From Natrarchaeobaculum aegyptiacum (GTDB lineage Archaea; Halobacteriota; Halobacteria; Halobacteriales; Natrialbaceae): DNA of 64,000 nt. Positions 28,472-36,174 of the stretch are shown in pieces. Position numbers and translations under genes: made by a program. The stretch spans positions 1,736,001-1,800,000 of the forward strand of contig NZ_CP019893.1 in the NCBI RefSeq assembly GCF_002156705.1, written 5' to 3'. The notes beneath the pieces are model-generated. The model was not told the DNA's origin. It searched no databases and worked only from the letters and a program-made list of their open reading frames with translations. Every line of letters begins with the position of its first letter. The first letter of the stretch is position 1.

Positions 28472-28930
28472 TGGTCTAGTTCTGTGATTCTTCTGTTGAC
28501 AGGTCGTATTCTTTCATGCTCACGCTCGAGCAGTGTAGCTGGCACGATGCCCGCTTTCTGAACGGGACTCCCGTCGGGATCAAGGGCACCATGCTCGAGA
28601 ACCGCGACGGCCAGCCGGGGGAAACTCCAAGGTCTACCGGGCGTATCCCGACCGACCCCGGCGGGCTGACGGCGGTACTGTTTCGTCGTCTATCGGACAC
28701 ACGGCCGGTCTGGCTGCACGATCGTCAAGGACAAGATGGTGAAGGTGTCGAACCTCCCACTACTCCGGTGGCACGACGGTGGCGATCACCGCGGGACTGA
28801 GCAGGCGAAGATATCGATTACAGACGTCTTTTGATGTCGTGTGGTGCTTACGTTTGATAACGTGACAGGAAACCGCTGCTGACTCGATGGAAATTCTGCT
28901 ATATCCCATGAGAGCGTGAAACAAGTATGG
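28472..28930. other. Gene-poor stretch upstream of the IS110 element
   Basis: About 28500-28800 is GC-rich and carries CTCGAG sites, but no frame has a plausible start and composition together; it may be a decayed native gene. Beyond 28800 the sequence turns AT-richer and contains one arm (28887-28901) of a 15-bp inverted repeat. Confidence 0.35.
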
Positions 28931-28949
28931 GACGCAAGAGACCGAGCTG

Positions 28950-29104
28950 TATTCCGTGCCCGAGAGCACGTGCTGCTGACTGGTCCGAGTGCGTAGGAAG
29001 CCGAGTCCTGGGCATTACAGCCCGACTGCCGCCAGGAGCGGCAGTCGGGAAAGCCCGCATAGGTGAATCTCTGTTTCACGCACCGGCGTTCCAAGGTGAG
29101 CCCA
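28950..29104 (+). ncRNA. Candidate bridge RNA of the IS110 element
   Basis: IS110-group elements encode a structured bridge (seek) RNA in the non-coding segment before the transposase that guides donor and target choice. Here that segment holds a perfect 12-bp stem, CCCGACTGCCGC (29021-29032) pairing with GCGGCAGTCGGG (29038-29049), with loop CAGGA. Guide loops were not identified; the assignment rests on family knowledge, position and this hairpin. Confidence 0.35.
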
Positions 29105-30103
29105 ATGTTCATTGGAATCGACGTACACAAGCGGTACTCACAGATCGCAGTACTGGACAAAAACGGTGAGATCGTCGAAGAGGTTCGCGTCGAAAACGCG
29201 AACCTCGACGACTTTGCCCAGCGGTACGCTGGGTCCAAAGCCGCGCTTGAAGCCACCAGCAACTACTACCACATCCACGATACGCTTTCAGCGTATCTGG
29301 ATGTGACTGTCGCTAACCCCGGCGAATTGAAGCTGATCTCTGACTCGGATAAGAAAACTGACCGCGTTGATGCGAAACAACTCGCTCGAATGCTTCGGTT
29401 AGGCTCGGTTCCAGAAAGCTACGTTCCAACCGACGAGGTTCGGCAAGCCCGCGCACTCGTGCGCGGGCGCCAGAAACTCGTTGAGAACCGGACTGAGTAC
29501 GCGAACAAGATCCATGGCTTGTTGAGTGACCACGGTATCACCCGTGAGGTAAAGCCGTTGAGTGTGGAGGGACGAGAGTTCCTGGCGGAACTCTCGCTCC
29601 CGGCACCGTGGGACGCGTTGTTGGAGTCGTACCTGGAACTGATTCAGGTGCTCACCGAGCAAATCGAATCGTTAGAAGCAGAGATCGAGGAGCGGGCTGG
29701 GTCTCTGAAGGAGACCCAGCTCCTGATGACGATTCCTGGTGTGAGTTACTTTACGGCGTTGACGATTTACGCGGAGTTGGGCGAGGTCAACCGGTTTGAC
29801 CGGGCCAAGGAAGTTGTTAGCTACTTCGGGTTGAACCCGATAATCCGCGAGTCTGGCGACTCGCGGTTTGAGGGAAGCATCTCGAAGCGAGGGTCAGGAC
29901 GGGTCCGGTGGCTGCTCGTTCAAGCGTCGTACACAGCGGTTCATACATGCGAAGACGAGTACCTTAGCCGGTTCTACAACCGGTTAGCTCGAAAGAAGAA
30001 CTCGAAAACAGCGATTGTGGCAACCGCTCGGAAGTTGCTGGTTTCAATGTATCATATGCTGGACCGTGAGGAGGTGTACGATCCACCAGGGGTGAGTGCC
30101 TGA
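29105..30103 (+). CDS. IS110-family transposase (DEDD recombinase)
   Basis: 332 residues, normal family length and apparently intact. The N-terminal RuvC-like domain begins FIGIDVHK with the first catalytic Asp at about D6; KAALEATSNYY carries the Glu and KKTDRVDAKQLARML the later Asp pair. The C-terminal Transposase_20 part has LLMTIPGVSYFTALTIYAE and SYFGLNPIIRESGDSR, with the helix-hairpin-helix feature and nucleophilic-serine region (FEGSISKRGSGRVR). ATG at 29105 follows the non-coding left part. AT-richer codon use than core genes supports recent transfer. Confidence 0.95.
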   Translation: MFIGIDVHKRYSQIAVLDKNGEIVEEVRVENANLDDFAQRYAGSKAALEATSNYYHIHDTLSAYLDVTVANPGELKLISDSDKKTDRVDAKQLARMLRLGSVPESYVPTDEVRQARALVRGRQKLVENRTEYANKIHGLLSDHGITREVKPLSVEGREFLAELSLPAPWDALLESYLELIQVLTEQIESLEAEIEERAGSLKETQLLMTIPGVSYFTALTIYAELGEVNRFDRAKEVVSYFGLNPIIRESGDSRFEGSISKRGSGRVRWLLVQASYTAVHTCEDEYLSRFYNRLARKKNSKTAIVATARKLLVSMYHMLDREEVYDPPGVSA

Positions 30104-30124
30104 GCGCCGCCGGGGCGGCGCTCA
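30101..30124. terminator. Palindrome starting on the transposase stop codon
   Basis: TGAGCGCCGCC (30101-30111) pairs perfectly with GGCGGCGCTCA (30114-30124) across two bases. The first three bases are the TGA stop. It may act as terminator or shield the transposase from read-through. Confidence 0.5.
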
Positions 30125-30468
30125 TTGGCTGGCTGGTGGCAGCGTGAGTGATTACTCTCGCAAACAGGAAGTCCCCCGCCTGATGGTTGTGACAGTAGCC
30201 ACCGGTTCGCCGGTTGTCGATTCTAGGCCAGAAAACCACAGCAAGTCCTTGTCGCCCGAAGAATTATCTTGGCAAACGTGGTTTGATCGATTAGCAGAAT
30301 TTCCATAGGTGAATATAGAGGATAGATTCAGCACGAGGGCTTCGTTTGTTTCACACCGAACGCGATGAATCGTCCGCTCACTACTCGTGCGGGCTGACCG
30401 CTTGCCTCCTAACAACCCTTCAAATCCCTCTCTATAGAATATAATTCTGAGTGTGGCGCAAGGTTCTT
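30104..30468. other. Right flank of the IS element
   Basis: Contains the palindrome at the stop codon, the second arm of the 15-bp inverted repeat (30292-30306) and one type C repeat (30321-30398). No gene supported; a 70-codon frame ending SWQTWFDRLAEFP has no convincing start. An ATATAATTC box at 30439-30447 serves the next gene. Confidence 0.45.
30321..30398 (+). repeat. Type C interspersed repeat, copy 1
   Basis: About 78 bp containing ATTCAGCACGAGGGCTTCGT, TTGTTTCAC and CCGCTCACTACTCGTGCG. It is similar over its whole length to 32630-32708, where the same sequence directly follows a type A copy. Confidence 0.7.
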
Positions 30469-30735
30469 ATGTCAATGGAGAATATAATCAGCATGGTTGC
30501 TATTGGGATTGGTACCCCTGCATTCTTGATTGGACAGTCAGCTATCTCTGGTTACGCAATAAATGAAACATATGGAAAATCGCTAGTGGGAGCTATCGCA
30601 CTTGGCGTCGGAATTTTCACACTTGGAATAGTTGGGGTGCTTATTTTTGATAGTATTGTGATTCCACTGGTGGCCCAGATGATTCTCTTGCTATTTCATC
30701 TATTATGGAAGAGAGTATCTGGTGCAGGGGCTTAG
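30469..30735 (+). CDS. Small membrane protein in the island, unknown
   Basis: 88 residues with two long hydrophobic segments (about 5-27 and 40-78) and a basic end (WKRVSG). AT-rich codon use. ATG at 30469 has an AT-rich box about 25 nt upstream; a GTG six codons earlier and an ATG two codons later are possible. It sits between a type C and a type A repeat. No family recognised. Confidence 0.5.
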   Translation: MSMENIISMVAIGIGTPAFLIGQSAISGYAINETYGKSLVGAIALGVGIFTLGIVGVLIFDSIVIPLVAQMILLLFHLLWKRVSGAGA

Positions 30736-30813
30736 AACGAAAATCATCTATAGTGAGCGATGTGTGCTTGGTCTGTACTGAGCGTTTGACCTTCTGCGTC
30801 CATCGCTACTTAG

Positions 30814-30912
30814 TCTGTGCCACATTCGCGCTGTAAGTTCAACACGCCTCGCTCAATCTATCCAGTAGCTGGTAGAAAGCGCGTGCAACATCCAGAGCGT
30901 GAGTTCAGCAGT
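30814..30912 (+). repeat. Type A interspersed repeat, diverged copy
   Basis: Within it 30828-30897 aligns base for base, without gaps, with the 70-bp unit at 32560 and 34097; I count about 11 substitutions. The shared core is CAGTAGCTGGTAGAAAGCGC. The CCACATTC left flank is shared with copies at 32552 and 33393. Confidence 0.75.
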
Positions 30913-30965
30913 GGGAGTTTGGTATTCAGGTAGAGTCGGAATGTCACTGATGGCTGCCGATGCGT

Positions 30966-31748
30966 TTACTCGTCGATCCAGTCGGGTGCGTCGACCTCGG
31001 CGTCCACAGTGTCGAACTCGTAGACGACGGAGACGGACTCGCTGTCGTCGAGGTTCCGATGGTAGTGCGCATACGACATCCCGGGCGTGAGGCGGTAGGA
31101 GACGTCGGCCCGGTGTAGCTGCTGGTCGCCGTCGACGACGACCTCCCCGTCGGTGTGTGAGAGGCGGAAGTCTCGGCCAGGGCCGTCATACAAATGCCAG
31201 GCGTCGCTGGCGGCGTACACATCGAACCCGTCCGTGGTGCTGGCTGTCTCGTAGTCCGCCCGGTAGAGCGTCGACCAGGCGATGTACCGCCAGGAATCGA
31301 CGACCTTCGCAGGCGGGGTGACTTCATCGCCCTCGAGGATGACGACGTGGCGGTTGTCCTCCTGGTAGCGGTCGACGACCTCGCCGTCGGAATCGTCGGC
31401 GAGGCGGTCGGCTTCCTCCTCGTCGACGACGCTGATGCGGGCGTGCGTAACGGAGCTGTTGCCGGGCGAGTATCGCTCCACGTAGTAGTTGCCGCCGTCC
31501 GTCTCGAGGACGAGGTGCTCGGCGCCTTCGGCGGCCGTGACGTACGAATAGTCGAAGAACATTACGCCATCGATATGGACGGCTGCCGTCTCGGTGTTGG
31601 GGACGGTGGCGTCGGTGCCGGCAGTGGTGTCGAACGGGATCGACCGGTCGGTCGACTCGAGAGGAAGGGTGAACGCGAGGCCGACGCTGGCGGCCAAGAG
31701 GACGACAACGACCGCGGCGAGAATGAGGCGTCGCGGAGCGATGTCCAT
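30966..31748 (-). CDS. Membrane-anchored extracytoplasmic protein, unknown
   Basis: 260 residues. A basic start (MDIAPRRL) and a hydrophobic helix (about 8-28) form a signal anchor. The rest is acidic and beta-like: HIDGVMFFDYSYVTAAEG, VLETDGGNYYVERYSPGN and HVVILEGDEVTPPAKVVDSW. No domain named. Unlike most of the island it is GC-rich with several CTCGAG sites, so it looks like native-type DNA. The ATG at 31748 was chosen because the anchor follows at once. Confidence 0.65.
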   Translation of the reverse strand: MDIAPRRLILAAVVVVLLAASVGLAFTLPLESTDRSIPFDTTAGTDATVPNTETAAVHIDGVMFFDYSYVTAAEGAEHLVLETDGGNYYVERYSPGNSSVTHARISVVDEEEADRLADDSDGEVVDRYQEDNRHVVILEGDEVTPPAKVVDSWRYIAWSTLYRADYETASTTDGFDVYAASDAWHLYDGPGRDFRLSHTDGEVVVDGDQQLHRADVSYRLTPGMSYAHYHRNLDDSESVSVVYEFDTVDAEVDAPDWIDE

Positions 31749-31810
31749 GACTGGCCACAGCCATCTATCTTTGAAAAATATTTCGGAGTTTTGACCCTCG
31801 AAACGCCCGA

Positions 31811-31939
31811 TCAGGAACTGTAGATGTATGGGCTGCCGGGATGCCCACGGTCGCGGCACTTCATCCGAAAGTGACCGTCGTCATCGCCTCGGTACCGCTC
31901 CGTGTCGAGCGAGTCGCATTCGACGCACCAGTTCGTCAC
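31811..31939 (-). CDS. Very small zinc-finger protein
   Basis: 42 codons from a GTG at 31939. It reads MTNWCVECDSLDTERYRG and later MKCRDRGHPGS, giving CxxC plus CxxxxH, a plausible single zinc site. Codons favour G or C at the third position and include an in-frame CTCGAC, which supports real coding. It lies 62 nt upstream of the membrane-anchored gene on the same strand, perhaps co-transcribed. Function unknown. Confidence 0.5.
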   Translation of the reverse strand: MTNWCVECDSLDTERYRGDDDGHFRMKCRDRGHPGSPYIYSS

Positions 31940-31995
31940 GGTTCGTTCCTGACCTCGTCACTCGTTCCGGTCGAGCGAACGCCTGTGCTGCATGT

Positions 31996-32055
31996 GCGCT
32001 GTGGATTCAGCACGGATTGTTCGAACTGCTCAGATTCTGTCAGGAGTGGTGTGAC
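31996..32055 (+). repeat. Type B interspersed repeat, copy 1
   Basis: 60 bp starting GCGCTGTGGATTCAGCACGG and including TGTTCGAACTGC. It aligns without gaps with 33401-33460. Read in frame, both copies give W-V/I-Q-H, then L-F-E-L, F-C-Q and C-D, so they may be fragments of one coding sequence. Confidence 0.65.
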
Positions 32056-32231
32056 CGACTTAGAGCATTAGTGCACCATGACGGTTGGCTTTATTTCGCC
32101 CATATAGGCTTGATACACCCGGAAGAGAACCTGCGTATTGAGCGAGCAGTTCGAATGAATTTCCGTAGACCAAACCAATCGGTGACGACACCAGAAACAA
32201 TTAACTTTTCACTCTATGTTAACCAGAATTG

Positions 32232-32477
32232 ATGAAGTTGGCTCGGCTCTTCACGTGGTCTCCCCACCAGGGGCAGCTCCGTGCAATCGTAAAGACACTC
32301 TGCTACCGCCTGTTTATGATCATGATTACGGTTGGTGTCGCATGGATCATTACGGGGAGCGGGACTGACGCAGTAAGTATCGGCATCGTCACGAACGTCA
32401 CCAAGACGTTCACATACTATCTCTACGAGCGAATGTGGGACCACATTACTTGGGGAATTGACCCCAACCCCAACTGA
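32232..32477 (+). CDS. DUF2061 family membrane protein
   Basis: 81 residues. AIVKTLCYRLFMIMITVGVA, TGSGTDAVSIG and VTKTFTYYLYERMWDHI follow the DUF2061 pattern of a conserved Lys/Arg-containing first helix and a Tyr-Tyr/Leu-x-Glu-Arg second helix. The family is a two-helix membrane protein of unknown role, often near transporters. ATG at 32232. Confidence 0.8.
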   Translation: MKLARLFTWSPHQGQLRAIVKTLCYRLFMIMITVGVAWIITGSGTDAVSIGIVTNVTKTFTYYLYERMWDHITWGIDPNPN

Positions 32478-32542
32478 TCCGCTATTCCTATGTTCGGTAT
32501 CGACTCTATACTGATCGATCACTCATCTTCGCAGATGGCTCT

Positions 32543-32708
32543 CAGTCCGTGCCACATTCGCGCGGTGAATTCAGCACGTCTCATTCAATCTATTCAGTAG
32601 CTGGTAGAAAGCGCGTGCTGAATCCAGAGGATGGGTGCAGCACGACAATCCCGTTTGTTTCACGTCGGGATCAGTGAACCATCCGCACACTACACGTGCG
32701 AACTGAAC
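32543..32708 (+). repeat. Composite A+C interspersed repeat (fullest copy)
   Basis: Type A (32543-32629) runs straight into type C (32630-32708), suggesting this is the complete unit and other copies are halves. The 70 bp at 32560-32629 are identical to 34097-34166. TTCAGCACG and its complement recur inside the unit. Confidence 0.75.
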
Positions 32709-32775
32709 ACTGTATTTGAACTAGTTTGCAGTAATGAAACCGCCAATAATTGTAATTAGAAGTGGGGAGATGTCA

Positions 32776-33279
32776 TCAGTCGTCAGGTCGCTCTTCGACG
32801 GTGACTATTGGGTCGTAGGTTTGGTAAACCTGTCCGATCCCGGTGCCTGCGATGAGTTCCCAGTCGCCAGCGACTGTCGCTTCAAACAACCCAGTAGTGA
32901 AAAACCTCGCTGCCCCGGACGGGATTTCGTCATCATCGTCAACAACGATGGTGGCCGTTTGAACGCCCGAATCTTCGTTCGGTGGGACGAGTTCAACATC
33001 GACTTCACCGGTAATGGATTCGCCACCAGCGTTTCCGAGAACAACTGCGATTTCAAATTCGTCACCAACGGTGACGCCGCCTGGTTCCTGTGGCTGATTC
33101 CGAAGGAGAATGAACTCACCGGGGGCGTCTTCATCGACCTCAAACTGGGGTGCATCAGAAGTAGTATCCGTTTCGGCAGTATCTTCATCACCGGTATTGT
33201 CTGTGTTAGAACTATTCAGGCATCCAGCGATAATTGATGCACTGACTGGAAGGGTGGTGAGGAGGGCACGACGGCGCAT
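32776..33279 (-). CDS. Tat-exported lipoprotein with Ig-like domain
   Basis: 167 residues. MRRRALLTTLPVSASIIAGC gives twin arginines, a hydrophobic stretch and a lipobox ending in the lipidated Cys (about C20). A Thr/Asp-rich spacer follows. Then comes a beta-sandwich-like domain: VTVGDEFEIAVVLGNAGGE, GEVDVELVPP and WELIAGTGIG. It is probably anchored on the outer face of the membrane. Partner unknown. It belongs to the AT-richer island. Confidence 0.75.
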   Translation of the reverse strand: MRRRALLTTLPVSASIIAGCLNSSNTDNTGDEDTAETDTTSDAPQFEVDEDAPGEFILLRNQPQEPGGVTVGDEFEIAVVLGNAGGESITGEVDVELVPPNEDSGVQTATIVVDDDDEIPSGAARFFTTGLFEATVAGDWELIAGTGIGQVYQTYDPIVTVEERPDD

Positions 33280-33400
33280 AGTTAATTCACATTTCGTTGG
33301 AGTATAAATATTGATGGAGTTTTCGTCCCAGTGATGTACCCTTCACCTGTACTGGGCGATCACCACCTCCGCAAATCAAGCAGAATCTCTTGCCACATTC

Positions 33401-33460
33401 GCGCTGTGGGTTCAGCACGAGCTGTTCGAACTAGCCGACTTCTGTCAGAAACGTTGTGAC
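33401..33460 (+). repeat. Type B interspersed repeat, copy 2
   Basis: 60 bp similar throughout to 31996-32055. With its left flank, the frame from 33392 to the TAG at 33527-33529 stays open for 45 codons, supporting the idea that type B is a fragment of a gene. Confidence 0.65.
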
Positions 33461-33525
33461 ACACCCAGAGTATATCTTGTCGTTCCCCGATTCGCCGTCA
33501 TTGAGGTAAATGAAGATGGACAGCA

Positions 33526-33984
33526 CTAGTCGGTCTGTGGTTCAATGAGGCCGAGCTGTTGCATCACCCCGAAATAATCAGCCTGCCCATACTCTTCGAT
33601 GATTTGACCGTCTCGCACAGTGAATACTGTCGTGCCCGTATACTGTGCCTTCTCACCGGAGGCCTCCGGGAGGCTGCCTAGTGGAAGCTCCCAAGAGCGG
33701 CCGGTGTGTGTCCCACCTCCCTCCCAGAGGGCGACCACTCGGTCGCCTTCAGCGATCAGTTCGTCGGTAAGCTCAAACCTCCCTTCTGGGAACCGCTGCT
33801 TATATCCAATAATGCGTTTCTTGACTTCTTCACGTCCTTGCACTTCACCGGCCAGTGGGTAGTACCACCGAATGTCATCTGCGGCGAGTTCGTCGACGAT
33901 GTCGGGGTTCGGTTCGCCCCAGTACTCGGACCACCAGCGTGAGACAATCTCTTTATTCGTTTCATGTGTCGAGGGTTTTGCCAT
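33526..33984 (-). CDS. SnoaL-like/ester cyclase family protein
   Basis: 152 residues with the NTF2-like pattern: NKEIVSRWWSEYWGEPNPDI, ADDIRWYYPLAGEVQGREEV, GGGTHTGRSWELPLGSL, and an end at TVRDGQIIEEYGQADYFG. Such proteins act as cyclases, isomerases or ligand binders; the substrate is not predictable. ATG at 33984; a Met six codons upstream is possible. Composition fits the island. Confidence 0.75.
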   Translation of the reverse strand: MAKPSTHETNKEIVSRWWSEYWGEPNPDIVDELAADDIRWYYPLAGEVQGREEVKKRIIGYKQRFPEGRFELTDELIAEGDRVVALWEGGGTHTGRSWELPLGSLPEASGEKAQYTGTTVFTVRDGQIIEEYGQADYFGVMQQLGLIEPQTD

Positions 33985-34096
33985 AGATTGAATCACCCAC
34001 ATTTCCTTTGGGGTCTACTATCATAGCGTCATCCGCTGAAAAATCTGCAGATGGTGAACAAGAGGGACATAATTCGAGAAAAGACGTGAGCGATAC

Positions 34097-34166
34097 GCGC
34101 GGTGAATTCAGCACGTCTCATTCAATCTATTCAGTAGCTGGTAGAAAGCGCGTGCTGAATCCAGAG
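34097..34166 (+). repeat. Type A interspersed repeat, 70-bp identical copy
   Basis: Identical over 70 bp to 32560-32629, 1.5 kb away in the same orientation. It starts GCGCGGTGAATTCAGCACG and ends CGTGCTGAATCCAGAG. Confidence 0.85.
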
Positions 34167-34179
34167 AGTGGGTTCATCA

Positions 34180-34330
34180 CCAGCATCCGGGCGAGCAAAG
34201 CGAGCCCGGTTCTCGGGCGGCGAGGCCGTGGGCCGAGCCGTCCGCCTTTTTCATCGAAGTTTTTGCGCGAGCGGTTCGCCTCCGGCGAACCCGACGCCGA
34301 AAAAGTTCGCGCCTTGTATGCAGCAATCCC
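34180..34330. other. GC-rich low-complexity intergenic sequence
   Basis: Text such as GCGAGCAAAGCGAGC and the hairpin GGTTCGCC TCC GGCGAACC (34273-34291) resembles GC-rich filler found at other gene borders in this window (35930-36050, 46840-46920). No gene supported. Confidence 0.4.
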
Positions 34331-34462
34331 GCTGAAATCTATCATCGACTGGGGTTTCAATTAGGCCGCTTATGTTGCCCACTCAAGCCGGATACAACCG
34401 ATTCACGCGGATGCGAAGGTACCACTCCGAAATGTAACAATTATAATATTATGGGGGTCGGA

Positions 34463-34969
34463 TCAGAGTGGTTTCGTATAAACGTACTCCTTGACTTCCG
34501 GTTTCAGGTCGCTATCCTGGGTTCTGATCCGTTTGAAGCTTGCCGATTCGTAGAACGAGACGCCCACCTCGTTGTCCGCAAGGACGGCAAGGTACAGCCG
34601 ATCGTATTCTCCGCGAAGGGAGTCTTGGACGTGCTCGAGCAGCGCCGTACCACTTCCTTCGCCCCACCGGTCGGGACGGACGTAGATCCGGTTCAGCGAT
34701 GCGACCGCTGGCCGATCGCGGTGCGGACCGGCATGCACGAAGCCGACGGGTTCGTCCGCTTCCTCGGCGATCAGGCAGACGGCGTCTTCACGGGCATGTG
34801 ACTCCGCAATCGACGCCTTGAGGTTCTCAAGTGCGTACCACTGGTTGATCGTCTCCGTGACGGTCTCCTCTCCGAGGATCGGGTCGTAGGCGGCGTGCCA
34901 GCTCTTACGAGCAATTTCACGGATTGCCGCCGCGTCGTCCGGGACTGCACATCGAACGTCCAGAGGCAC
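34463..34969 (-). CDS. GNAT family N-acetyltransferase
   Basis: 168 residues. AVPDDAAAIREIARKSWHAA starts the fold. Motif A is LNRIYVRPDRWGEGSGTALL with the acetyl-CoA pyrophosphate loop, and motif B is LAVLADNEVGVSFYESASF. The substrate is unknown. It is GC-rich like the core genome and marks the right end of the AT-rich island. Confidence 0.88.
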   Translation of the reverse strand: MPLDVRCAVPDDAAAIREIARKSWHAAYDPILGEETVTETINQWYALENLKASIAESHAREDAVCLIAEEADEPVGFVHAGPHRDRPAVASLNRIYVRPDRWGEGSGTALLEHVQDSLRGEYDRLYLAVLADNEVGVSFYESASFKRIRTQDSDLKPEVKEYVYTKPL

Positions 34970-35139
34970 GCCTCTTTGTTTGACACCAGGGGGATAAACT
35001 GTTACTCTCCCTCACTCATTGGTCAGTAGAATCATCAAAAGCCCCTCTCGCTGAGTAGGTGATCACTGGTAGCTCTCAGAAGAGGCGCATTCCTCAGTAG
35101 TTACCCCTCCGTTCGTACTACACTCGCGATATATATTCA

Positions 35140-35325
35140 TCAGCGTGTGACAAACCTCTCAAGTCTTGTTAGTGACTTATCTTTTACCCTTGCTCTGACA
35201 AAGACCGAGCTTTCCACGTCGAAGGTGATCGCTCGAGTCGAGAGTGTCTCGGCGATCTCCTCTCGCTGCTTCTGGGTGAGGTCGTCGCGCTCGAGGACGT
35301 CGCTGGTTCTCTCCTGATCGCCCAC
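35140..35325 (-). CDS. Small hypothetical protein next to tRNA-Arg
   Basis: 61 residues from GTG 35325: a charged start (GDQERTSDVLERDD), a helical segment (LTQKQREEIAETLSTR) and FDVESSVFVRARVKDKSL. It reads like real coding sequence but matches no family I know, and it could be the leftover of a larger gene cut at the tRNA-proximal site. Confidence 0.4.
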   Translation of the reverse strand: MGDQERTSDVLERDDLTQKQREEIAETLSTRAITFDVESSVFVRARVKDKSLTRLERFVTR

Positions 35326-35430
35326 TCAGAAGCCGCCCGACGAATCGACGAGCGTGCTCGAGGTTGCACTACTTCGAACCCCTCGAGGTGCGTGACTCGC
35401 TCGTTGCGTCCACTTTCTGCAGAATCGCTT

Positions 35431-35458
35431 GCACGATGGGATTCGAACCACGGTCGGA
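35431..35458 (-). repeat. Duplicated 3' half of tRNA-Arg (possible attachment-site relic)
   Basis: GCACGATGGGATTCGAAC at 35431-35448 is identical to 35532-35549 inside the tRNA gene, same orientation. Similarity continues with gaps through the T-arm to the 3' strand of the anticodon stem (TCCGAC). Integrases that use tRNA 3' ends leave such partial copies. Confidence 0.6.
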
Positions 35459-35529
35459 GACAAGCACCTCCCTGATTCGAATCCCACGAGATCCGTTCCG
35501 CACGGCTCACAACCGTTCGCCGGCGTCAC

Positions 35530-35603
35530 GGGCACGATGGGATTCGAACCCACGACCGTCGGATTAGAAGTCCGACGCTCTATCCAGACTGAGCTACGTG
35601 CCC
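35530..35603 (-). tRNA. tRNA-Arg(UCU)
   Basis: 74 nt. The acceptor stem GGGCACG pairs with CGTGCCC. The D-arm is GCTC with loop AGTCTGGATA and GAGC, and the anticodon stem TCGGA/TCCGA encloses loop CTTCTAA with anticodon TCT. The T-arm contains GGGTTCGAATCCC. No CCA is encoded and no intron is seen. It reads AGA codons. Confidence 0.95.
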
Positions 35604-35664
35604 TCGAGTACGTCTCACCCATCGAGTGGTATAAGCAGTACGGATTTGCCCCCTCGAGACCGGA

Positions 35665-35805
35665 TCACAGGTCCATGAACCTGAGAAATGCCCCGAGGGC
35701 CACGAGCACGAGTCCGATGGCAGCCCCCACGAACGGCGGTAACACCGGAATCGGGATCACGATCAGGAGGATGCCGACGAGGAGCACCTTCGTTGACAGT
35801 CGCAT
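35665..35805 (-). CDS. Small membrane protein, unknown
   Basis: 46 residues from ATG 35805 (MRLSTKVLLVG). The protein is nearly all hydrophobic with IPIPVLPPFVG in the middle, ending LRFMDL; it probably makes two short membrane passes. An ATG 15 codons upstream (35850, MAPLETNV) is an alternative start. Confidence 0.55.
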   Translation of the reverse strand: MRLSTKVLLVGILLIVIPIPVLPPFVGAAIGLVLVALGAFLRFMDL

Positions 35806-35900
35806 GGGATGGGCGTCCACCTCGAGGACATTAGTCTCGAGGGGTGCCATAGAGTGTGTTGTTGTGACCGTCCGTTCTCCCACCTGTATTGAATGAGAAC

Positions 35901-36174
35901 ACCTCGAAAGCCCCTGCCGGCGTCCAGTCGATGGCCTGGCGAGACGCTTCGCGTCTCGCTGGCATTCGCTCACTCCGGTCGCGAATAGCTCGCTGCGCGC
36001 TTCGGTCGCTTTGCTCCCTCCAGTGCTTGCGTCGCCCGTCTTCCCGGACGCCGGCAGCCCCTTTCATTCCCGCCCGCGGTGGCATGGTCGGCTTGGCGAC
36101 ATGGGTGGGAATGAAAGGGGGCGACTCGTGCGTGGCGGTGGAGCCGCCACGCACGAGTCGGGGGCTTTCGAGGT
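35901..36174. repeat. Nested perfect inverted repeats
   Basis: Outer arms ACCTCGAAAGCCCC (35901-35914) and GGGGCTTTCGAGGT (36161-36174). Inside are a 9-bp stem with TTC loop (35939-35959), a 14-bp stem CCCCTTTCATTCCC (36058-36071) with GGGAATGAAAGGGG (36107-36120), and a 16-bp stem (36123-36138 with 36144-36159) around loop TGGAG. All arms are exact. It fills most of the gap before the kinase gene. Confidence 0.8.

Follow-up and report, generated by a model that had tools for sequence, protein, structure and literature searches.

Organization of the locus

The window was the whole 64,000-nt stretch of Natrarchaeobaculum aegyptiacum DNA that was analysed (NZ_CP019893.1, positions 1,736,001 to 1,800,000). 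From about 28.85 to 34.37 kb it holds one decayed array of six cassettes, with an IS110 element within the left end (Table 1). The array is about 5.5 kb long and carries five genes; a transposase for its own ends is not among them. The insertion point of the IS110 element was identical in 5 of the 5 copies compared. When inverted, cassette 6 shares 72-75% identity with the cassettes without genes in loci L155 and L172. For the DUF2061 cassette, no copy of more than 78% identity was found elsewhere and none of the 11 fetched loci contained F or C blocks. In an Rfam scan of positions 29000-36000, the gathering score was reached by tRNA only.

Table 1. Features of the cassette array, in coordinates of the window
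Feature	Position	Strand	Basis
Putative left target duplication GCTTACGT	28846-28853	.	Read from sequence; duplications in the family are 8 bp
Decayed left end (TTGATAACGTGACAGGAAACCGCTGCTGA), lacking the outer tip	28854-28882	+	Compared with intact left ends
IS110-family element in left-end arm (GCTGA / TGAATA)	28883-30309	+	PF02371, PF01548; NF033542
IS110 transposase ORF	29105-30103		Within IS110-family element
C block, opens cassette 1 (type C)	30320-30396	+	nhmmer block model
Cassette 1: small membrane-type protein, unknown family	30397-30771	+	C-F bracket; no Pfam match
Cassette 1 ORF	30469-30735	+
F block, closes cassette 1	30772-30832	+	Block model
Junction core, type A, 66 nt	30832-30897	+	Junction-core alignment
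Cassette 2: 260-aa protein, unknown family; C and F blocks degenerate	30931-31935	-
Cassette 2 ORF	30966-31748	-
Junction core, type B	32000-32065	+	Junction-core alignment
C block, diverged, opens cassette 3	32065-32141	+	Block model
Cassette 3: DUF2061 membrane protein	32142-32504	+	PF09834, E=2.1e-16
Cassette 3 ORF	32229-32477	+
F block, closes cassette 3	32505-32563	+	Block model
Junction core, type A, identical to 34101-34166	32564-32629	+	Sequence, repeat search, junction-core alignment
C block, opens cassette 4	32629-32706	+	Block model
Cassette 4: 167-aa secreted or lipoprotein-like protein, unknown family	32707-33345	-
Cassette 4 ORF	32776-33279	-
F block, closes cassette 4	33346-33405	+	Block model
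Junction core, type B	33405-33470	+	Junction-core alignment
Cassette 5: SnoaL-like protein; C and F blocks degenerate	33480-34085	-	PF07366, E=7.6e-23
Cassette 5 ORF	33526-33984	-
Junction core, type A	34101-34166	+	Sequence; junction-core alignment
Cassette 6: gene-less segment	34175-34305	+	Sequence comparison
Right end: F remnant, arm, terminal inverted repeat	34304-34367	+	Sequence and block model
Putative right target duplication GCTTATGT	34368-34375	.	Read from sequence

The original prediction described a family of repeats of three types. All copies were recovered by repeat search, on the plus strand: three of type A (30824, 32556 and 34093), two of type B (31986 and 33391) and two of type C (30310 and 32619). 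Positions 32560-32629 and 34097-34166 are indeed identical over 70 bp. When the genome was searched with the A+C unit, matches were found at 12 places (E ≤ 5.5e-4); together with the 70-bp identity, this is far beyond chance. Types A and B are two forms of a single junction core, and type C is the block with which a cassette opens. A recent duplication had been proposed for the 70-mer and is plausible as such; however, the identity ends exactly at the borders of the junction core, so module exchange fits better than duplication of a larger segment.

Cassette order and junction core

F and C blocks were searched with separate models (nhmmer). Cassettes have a median length of 554 bp and usually contain one gene, with a C block on the left and an F block on the right. 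Their content is diverse, including a toxin-antitoxin pair, and their G+C content is 0.50 (0.58 for the loci). With the block models, the C-to-F order of a cassette was encountered 71 times and an F-to-C joint 39 times. The spacing was 57-73 nt in 35 of these joints, 26 of which had 64-66 nt. Neighbouring F and C blocks were on the same strand in 129 cases versus 14. Between one cassette and the next, in a single orientation, lies a constant junction of 66 nt. Of 54 junction cores, 49 could be aligned over this length without a gap; five cores lie in the window. When consensus sequences were compared by eye, the junction resembled, to a moderate degree, a right end and a left end reduced to their inner parts, the tips being absent.

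Ends, target duplications and distribution

The repeat family was present in 30 of 61 relatives, across the Natrialbaceae haloarchaea. Terminal inverted repeats (GGCTCTGTTGAAATCCTC) are common to autonomous IS5-family elements and cassette arrays; their pattern was found in 28 of 37 relatives, and a reversed control pattern gave zero matches. The original prediction had overlooked both ends of the element, as well as the wide distribution of the repeats, both in the genome and throughout the archaeal family. A phage or virus origin was considered and rejected, with no match in annotated phages, nor for the F-block pattern in IMG/VR contigs. Concerted evolution of the end blocks was unsupported for F and C, in which similarity within genomes is not raised.

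Target duplications, a proposed check, were found around the family copies. They are 8 bp long and match at 7 or 8 of the 8 bases in 27 of 43 end pairs (0.28% in mismatched pairs); the other 16 have no target duplication, and some of these are surely mis-paired ends. Multi-cassette arrays with an outer duplication include L073 (8/8) and L057, L064, L069 and L061 (7/8), the L057 array being 5.9 kb long. Since whole arrays are bounded by a single target duplication, they moved as units. In relatives, GGCTCTGTTGAAATCC ends with 8-bp duplications flank intact IS5-family transposase ORFs (L110/L202, L119/L208, L205, L210, L213); among these IS5-bearing elements, L210 has a C-like right end and L208 an F-type end. 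The own genome contains only two IS5 transposase relatives, which are distant (best about 35% identity). IS ends also bracket cargo without transposase, in the window array and for example in L112, L138, L155 and L174.

In the window, the right terminal inverted repeat proper (34350-34367) matches at 15 of 18 positions, and the two putative target duplications are 7/8 identical, the left copy adjoining the decayed left end. Because the left tip is decayed and the duplication reaches only 7/8, the mobility of this copy was read from its relatives. The array is absent between the same flanking genes in three genomes (G022, G020 and G084), but there the interval holds other DNA, and no exact empty site was found.

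Proposed mechanism

With a probability of about 0.8, the repeats are the two ends and the inner joints of a non-autonomous transposon of the IS5 type, which carries exchangeable gene cassettes in an array. The outermost C and F blocks run on into terminal inverted repeats that resemble the ends of autonomous IS5-family elements. Acting in trans, an IS5 transposase would cut at the tips and insert the whole array, creating an 8-bp target duplication. Because the internal joints have no tips, they would be left uncut, so that an array of several cassettes would travel as one unit. Cassettes are swapped between different ends and arrays; the exchange step may be recombination, either between the F-junction-C segments that these have in common or at the edges of the cassettes. 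The window copy has decayed, having lost the left tip, and carries an IS110 element in its left arm.

The observation behind the original prediction was confirmed and its interpretation partly supported. Of the options it offered, a MITE-like mobile unit was right in that the array is probably a non-autonomous transposon, but at about 5.5 kb and with five genes it is too long and gene-bearing for a MITE. Recombination sites that shuffle cargo genes were also partly right, as cassettes are exchanged between ends and arrays.

Cassette exchange and alternative explanations

An 849-bp cassette encoding a MazE/AbrB-PIN toxin-antitoxin pair is 96.5-97.5% identical in three genomes. It forms a single-cassette transposon in L123 (own genome), the end of an array in L060 and the middle of an array in L161. 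The adjoining blocks are much less alike (C 71-76%, F 60-71% identical) and the flanking loci are unrelated, so cassettes move between ends. Cassettes of 516 and 804 bp behaved in the same way. At one orthologous site, both array end points are common to two congeneric species, which have no cassette in common there.

A tentative extension, on balance unlikely, is that the cassettes are discrete mobile units inserted at a short core by an undiscovered site-specific recombinase, which would make the system an integrase-independent, transposon-borne haloarchaeal analogue of the integron. A motif is common to both cassette edges, in direct orientation: TGC-GWAYTGA-N-CR at the C edge and CCT-GTACTGA-N-CG at the F edge. 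The unconserved position is the same in both, and conservation stops just inside the cassette. Edge heptamers of the same cassette showed no correlation (p=0.64). Among 125 genomes, a search for cassette-free C-F fusions gave 12 pattern matches, none with an F block close behind.

Identical cassettes between different ends would also arise if the cassettes were immobile and gene conversion overwrote their end blocks with those of other copies in the genome. Conversion tracts would stop where homology ends, which is where the identity stops too, and the similarity of junction cores is slightly higher within genomes (0.621 vs 0.585 between them; 1/500 permutations). Against this, neither F blocks (0.668 within and 0.665 between genomes; permutation 76/300) nor C blocks (0.627 and 0.633; 229/300) follow suit, and gene conversion works poorly on blocks of 60-80 nt that are 60-76% identical. 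Shared cassettes sit at unrelated loci, so they moved in any case. This explanation is rather improbable.

It is less probable still that many separate MITEs with cargo simply inserted in tandem or into one another and that there is no cassette system. Simple single-cargo elements with the same ends do exist (L106, L108, L109 and L117), but such insertions predict tips and a target duplication for each unit and mixed orientations. The joints instead lack tips and have a constant 66-nt core, arrays keep one orientation, and several have a single outer duplication.

An archaeal integron, in which the repeats would be attC sites and an IntI-type tyrosine integrase would insert and excise the cassettes, is very improbable. 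It would suit the cassettes, which are directional and in tandem, about 0.55 kb long, mostly of one gene, low in G+C and diverse in content with a toxin-antitoxin pair, and integrons are reported from archaeal MAGs (PMC9668308). However, 0 of 61 relatives were over the TIGR02249 integron-integrase cut-off, the control set being one without an integron-bearing genome. Single-strand folds of the junction core were no better than those of shuffles (z -1.2 to +0.4), and the hairpin is not conserved, its arms being unpaired in many junction copies. The arrays end in terminal repeats with 8-bp duplications outside them, and to our knowledge integrons make no 8-bp target duplications.

That the repeats are fragments of one decayed gene, the last of the options first offered, is scarcely credible: an open frame does run through some B copies (e.g. 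ORF 31828-32232), but this overlying ORF has no Pfam match, stop codons recur in the junction-core consensus of the longest readable frame, the copies are intergenic, matches in annotated plasmids fall outside the listed genes, the 66-nt core is constant in length, and block grammar and target duplications account for the sequence without any gene.

Implications and comparison with known systems

As a non-autonomous IS5-type transposon, the element would spread and shuffle small genes much like bacterial integrons, apparently without an integron integrase. If so, plain insertion-sequence ends gave rise in archaea to cassette arrays whose units are directional, hold single genes and are linked by a reusable joint. 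Haloarchaea would thereby have a concrete way of sharing toxin-antitoxin pairs, orphan genes and small regulators (DUF7344, BAT/HTH_10, HalOD1). The origin of the orphan genes between the repeats also becomes testable, as borders, expected target duplications and a candidate transposase are specified.

The IS5 family (NF033579 transpos_IS5_2; DDE_Tnp_1) has the same terminal inverted repeats and 8-bp duplications, with intact transposases between such ends in relatives; in contrast, the window array lacks a transposase for its ends, contains several unrelated genes and has internal joints without tips. Mobile insertion cassettes (MICs), known from IS231 derivatives in Bacillus, have IS-derived ends between which a single cargo replaces the transposase, and are moved in trans. 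The arrays are like them in that IS ends bracket transposase-free cargo, and differ in their ordered cassettes, constant joint and cassette exchange, 39 F-to-C joints lying between cassettes. MITEs of haloarchaea, described in Halobacterium and Haloquadratum (reviewed in PMC10969869), are also non-autonomous, with terminal inverted repeats and target duplications; however, MITEs are typically shorter than 500 bp and gene-free, whereas these arrays carry genes over several kb. TIMEs are Tn3-derived miniature elements that build mosaic non-autonomous transposons and likewise mobilize diverse genes as transposase-free composite units (PMC4133298). They have Tn3-family ends, 5-6 bp duplications and composites of two miniature elements, and neither a junction core nor cassette blocks are among the features described in the abstract. 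Integrons, archaeal ones included (PMC9668308), likewise consist of small exchangeable gene cassettes in directional arrays, with a site between each. Unlike them, the present arrays yielded no IntI over the cut-off, lack a conserved attC hairpin and are bounded by the ends of a transposon, with target duplications.

Organization of the repeats

By sequence inspection and repeat search, repeats A, B and C of the original prediction were all found at their positions and in the same orientation, and the identity of the two 70-bp copies was exact. F and C blocks were modelled separately. The C block (78 nt, GGATGAGTGCAGCACGACGACTTCGTTTGTTTCACGCCGAAA...GTGCGTACTGA) opens a cassette and the F block (61 nt, CCTGTACTGAGCGATCAC...GTGCCACATTCGCGCT) closes it. 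Over 99 loci the block order was regular: C-to-F with a gene in between (71 times), F-to-C (39 times), F-to-terminal repeat pointing inward (33 times) and terminal repeat-to-C (27 times). Adjacent F and C blocks were on the same strand 129 times versus 14 on opposite strands. F-to-C spacing was 57-73 nt in 35 of 39 cases and 64-66 nt in 26 of those 35.

The F-C junction aligned without gaps across 66 nt in 49 of 54 units. Repeats A and B are two types of this junction, identical at about half of positions; we therefore think that one ancestral joint spread by recombination, rather than forming anew repeatedly. Judged on consensus sequences, the junction seems to combine inner parts of both ends: its left half resembles that of the right end (CTGAAACCTATCA / CTCAATCTATC) and its right half that of the left end. 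Consensus also suggests that, relative to the ends, about 20 nt of each tip are missing. If two tips abutted, they would make a perfect, deletion-prone palindrome, from which the joint may have originated; without tips it should escape transposase cutting.

The window covers C1:1736001-1800000 in a complete single-contig genome (3.93 Mb). A genome-wide search with the A+C unit, the fullest repeat unit, found 12 places, and the family is thus not confined to this locus. Among 61 relatives the unit had matches in 30 (27 of the 48 good genomes), most of them in the same family, and among annotated plasmids 28 records matched. Where these records are annotated, no best place among the matches listed overlapped a gene. 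A degenerate F-block pattern, searched in contigs with one genome per species, gave 53 stretches, nearly all from Natrialbaceae, with one each from Halorubrum and Halovenus and a few from metagenome bins; IMG/VR contigs gave 0 matches. These haloarchaeal elements were also seen on four contigs (L153, L164, L172 and L155) binned as Bacteroidales, Elusimicrobia, Rhodobacteraceae and Thermoplasmata (hypersaline sediment). L153 and L164 carried the same elements, equally spaced. These contigs are probably misbinned.

Ends, target duplications and transposase

The cassette-array element is a transposon. Its terminal repeat GGCTCTGTTGAAATCCTC occurs in facing pairs with 0.34 to 5.9 kb between. The 8-bp flanks were identical in 19 of 43 pairs and matched at 7/8 in 8 more; random pairing of flanks gave a match of at least 7/8 in 0.28%. 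Since such duplications are common to single-cassette elements and arrays of two to four cassettes, arrays insert as units. In relatives, IS5-family transposase genes lie between the same ends, with such duplications. On sequence grounds, the ends of two IS5 transposase elements (C-like right end in L210, F-type end in L208) tie the cassette elements to an autonomous IS5-family partner, which would move them in trans.

Elements of 1.7-3.8 kb at L205 and L213 (also L116) have the family's ends, with an IS5 transposase and extra DNA inside; one element can therefore combine transposase and cargo.

The window copy holds an IS110-family element and six cassettes between its ends (table). Its 7/8 target duplication is suggestive only. 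Outside it, the matches to an upstream segment stop at ~28834, shortly before the left boundary, and a tRNA gene with a copy of its end sequence is possibly an old integration site.

Features of the window copy and its surroundings
Feature	Position	Remark
Segment matched in relatives	28537-28834	71-81% in several relatives; three copies in relative G004
Left flank	28846-28853	GCTTACGT; adjoins decayed left end; 7/8 duplication with right flank
Decayed left end	28854-28882
IS110-family element	28883-30309	In left arm
Cassette 1		Small membrane-type protein
Cassette 2		260-aa protein, unknown family
Cassette 3		DUF2061
Cassette 4		167-aa protein, unknown family
Cassette 5		SnoaL-like protein
Cassette 6		No gene; related to gene-less cassettes of L155 and L172
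Identical 70-bp copies	32560-32629 and 34097-34166
Right end	34304-34367
Right flank	34368-34375	GCTTATGT; adjoins right end
tRNA end-sequence copy and tRNA-Arg(tct) gene	35431-35449 and 35529-35603	Exact 19-bp copy, 101 bp away

Content and movement of cassettes

Cassettes (n = 73) had a median length of 554 bp and mostly one ORF, with a mean G+C of 0.50 versus 0.58 for the loci. The 75 ORFs, picked mechanically and including some that are not genes, gave 46 Pfam families, singletons for the most part. Recurrent families were haloarchaeal regulators (DUF7344, six; BAT/HTH_10, four; HalOD1, three).

Comparison between loci showed that cassettes move. A MazE/AbrB-PIN cassette of 849 bp was 96.5-97.5% identical end to end in three genomes. 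Its setting was end-C-cassette-F-end in the window's own genome (L123), junction-C-cassette-F-end in the congeneric relative G003 (L060) and junction-C-cassette-F-junction in Natronorubrum halalkaliphilum (L161). The blocks beside it were only 71-76% (C) and 60-71% (F) identical, and the surrounding loci were unrelated to one another. A DUF7344-type cassette (516 bp, 96.5%) and a DUF2270 cassette (804 bp, 95-98%) behaved alike (L066, L074, L121). At one site, with acyl-CoA synthetase and acyl-CoA dehydrogenase as neighbour genes (read from sequence), both array end points were common to the own genome and G003, with flanks ~83% identical and no cassette in common; three other genomes lacked the array at this site. 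Near-identical cassettes between unlike blocks could also result from conversion of the ends. Homogenisation of end blocks within genomes was not found, and cassettes passing between ends is therefore the better reading. The suggested shuffling of cargo genes was partly borne out by these cassettes.

Cassette edges share one motif in direct orientation (C side TGC-GWAYTGA-N-CR, F side CCT-GTACTGA-N-CG), with the unconserved base at an equal position on both sides; conservation drops to nothing inside the cassette. The direct repeat GTACTGANCG was present at both edges (57 C edges, 112 F blocks). Symmetric transposase-binding sites are expected to be inverted, not direct. The motif may mark the exchange point. 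Motif variants at the two edges of one cassette were not correlated, and a search for a cassette-free fusion found none.

Insertion of an IS110-family element

The IS110-family element was also found at L057, L058, L111 and L123 (copies 93-98% identical). All five copies compared were inserted at the same spot of a GTGCTGA / TGAATACAG arm, which in at least four of the five belongs to the terminal repeat of the cassette transposon. The element apparently targets this family of transposons and would be suitable for testing bridge-RNA target choice.

Comparison with known systems

Of the predicted MITE-like mobile unit, the mobility stood (terminal repeats, duplications); a plain MITE was rejected on size, genes and joints. 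An integron was rejected on two tests: no IntI exceeded the cut-off in 61 genomes, and junction cores had no special folding. No description of such cassette arrays in haloarchaea was found in the open-access literature, the coverage of which was incomplete, and the passages found of the Natrialba magadii genome paper do not mention the element; novelty is thus provisional. The element fits the concept of a mobile insertion cassette, from which it differs by its arrays and by exchange.
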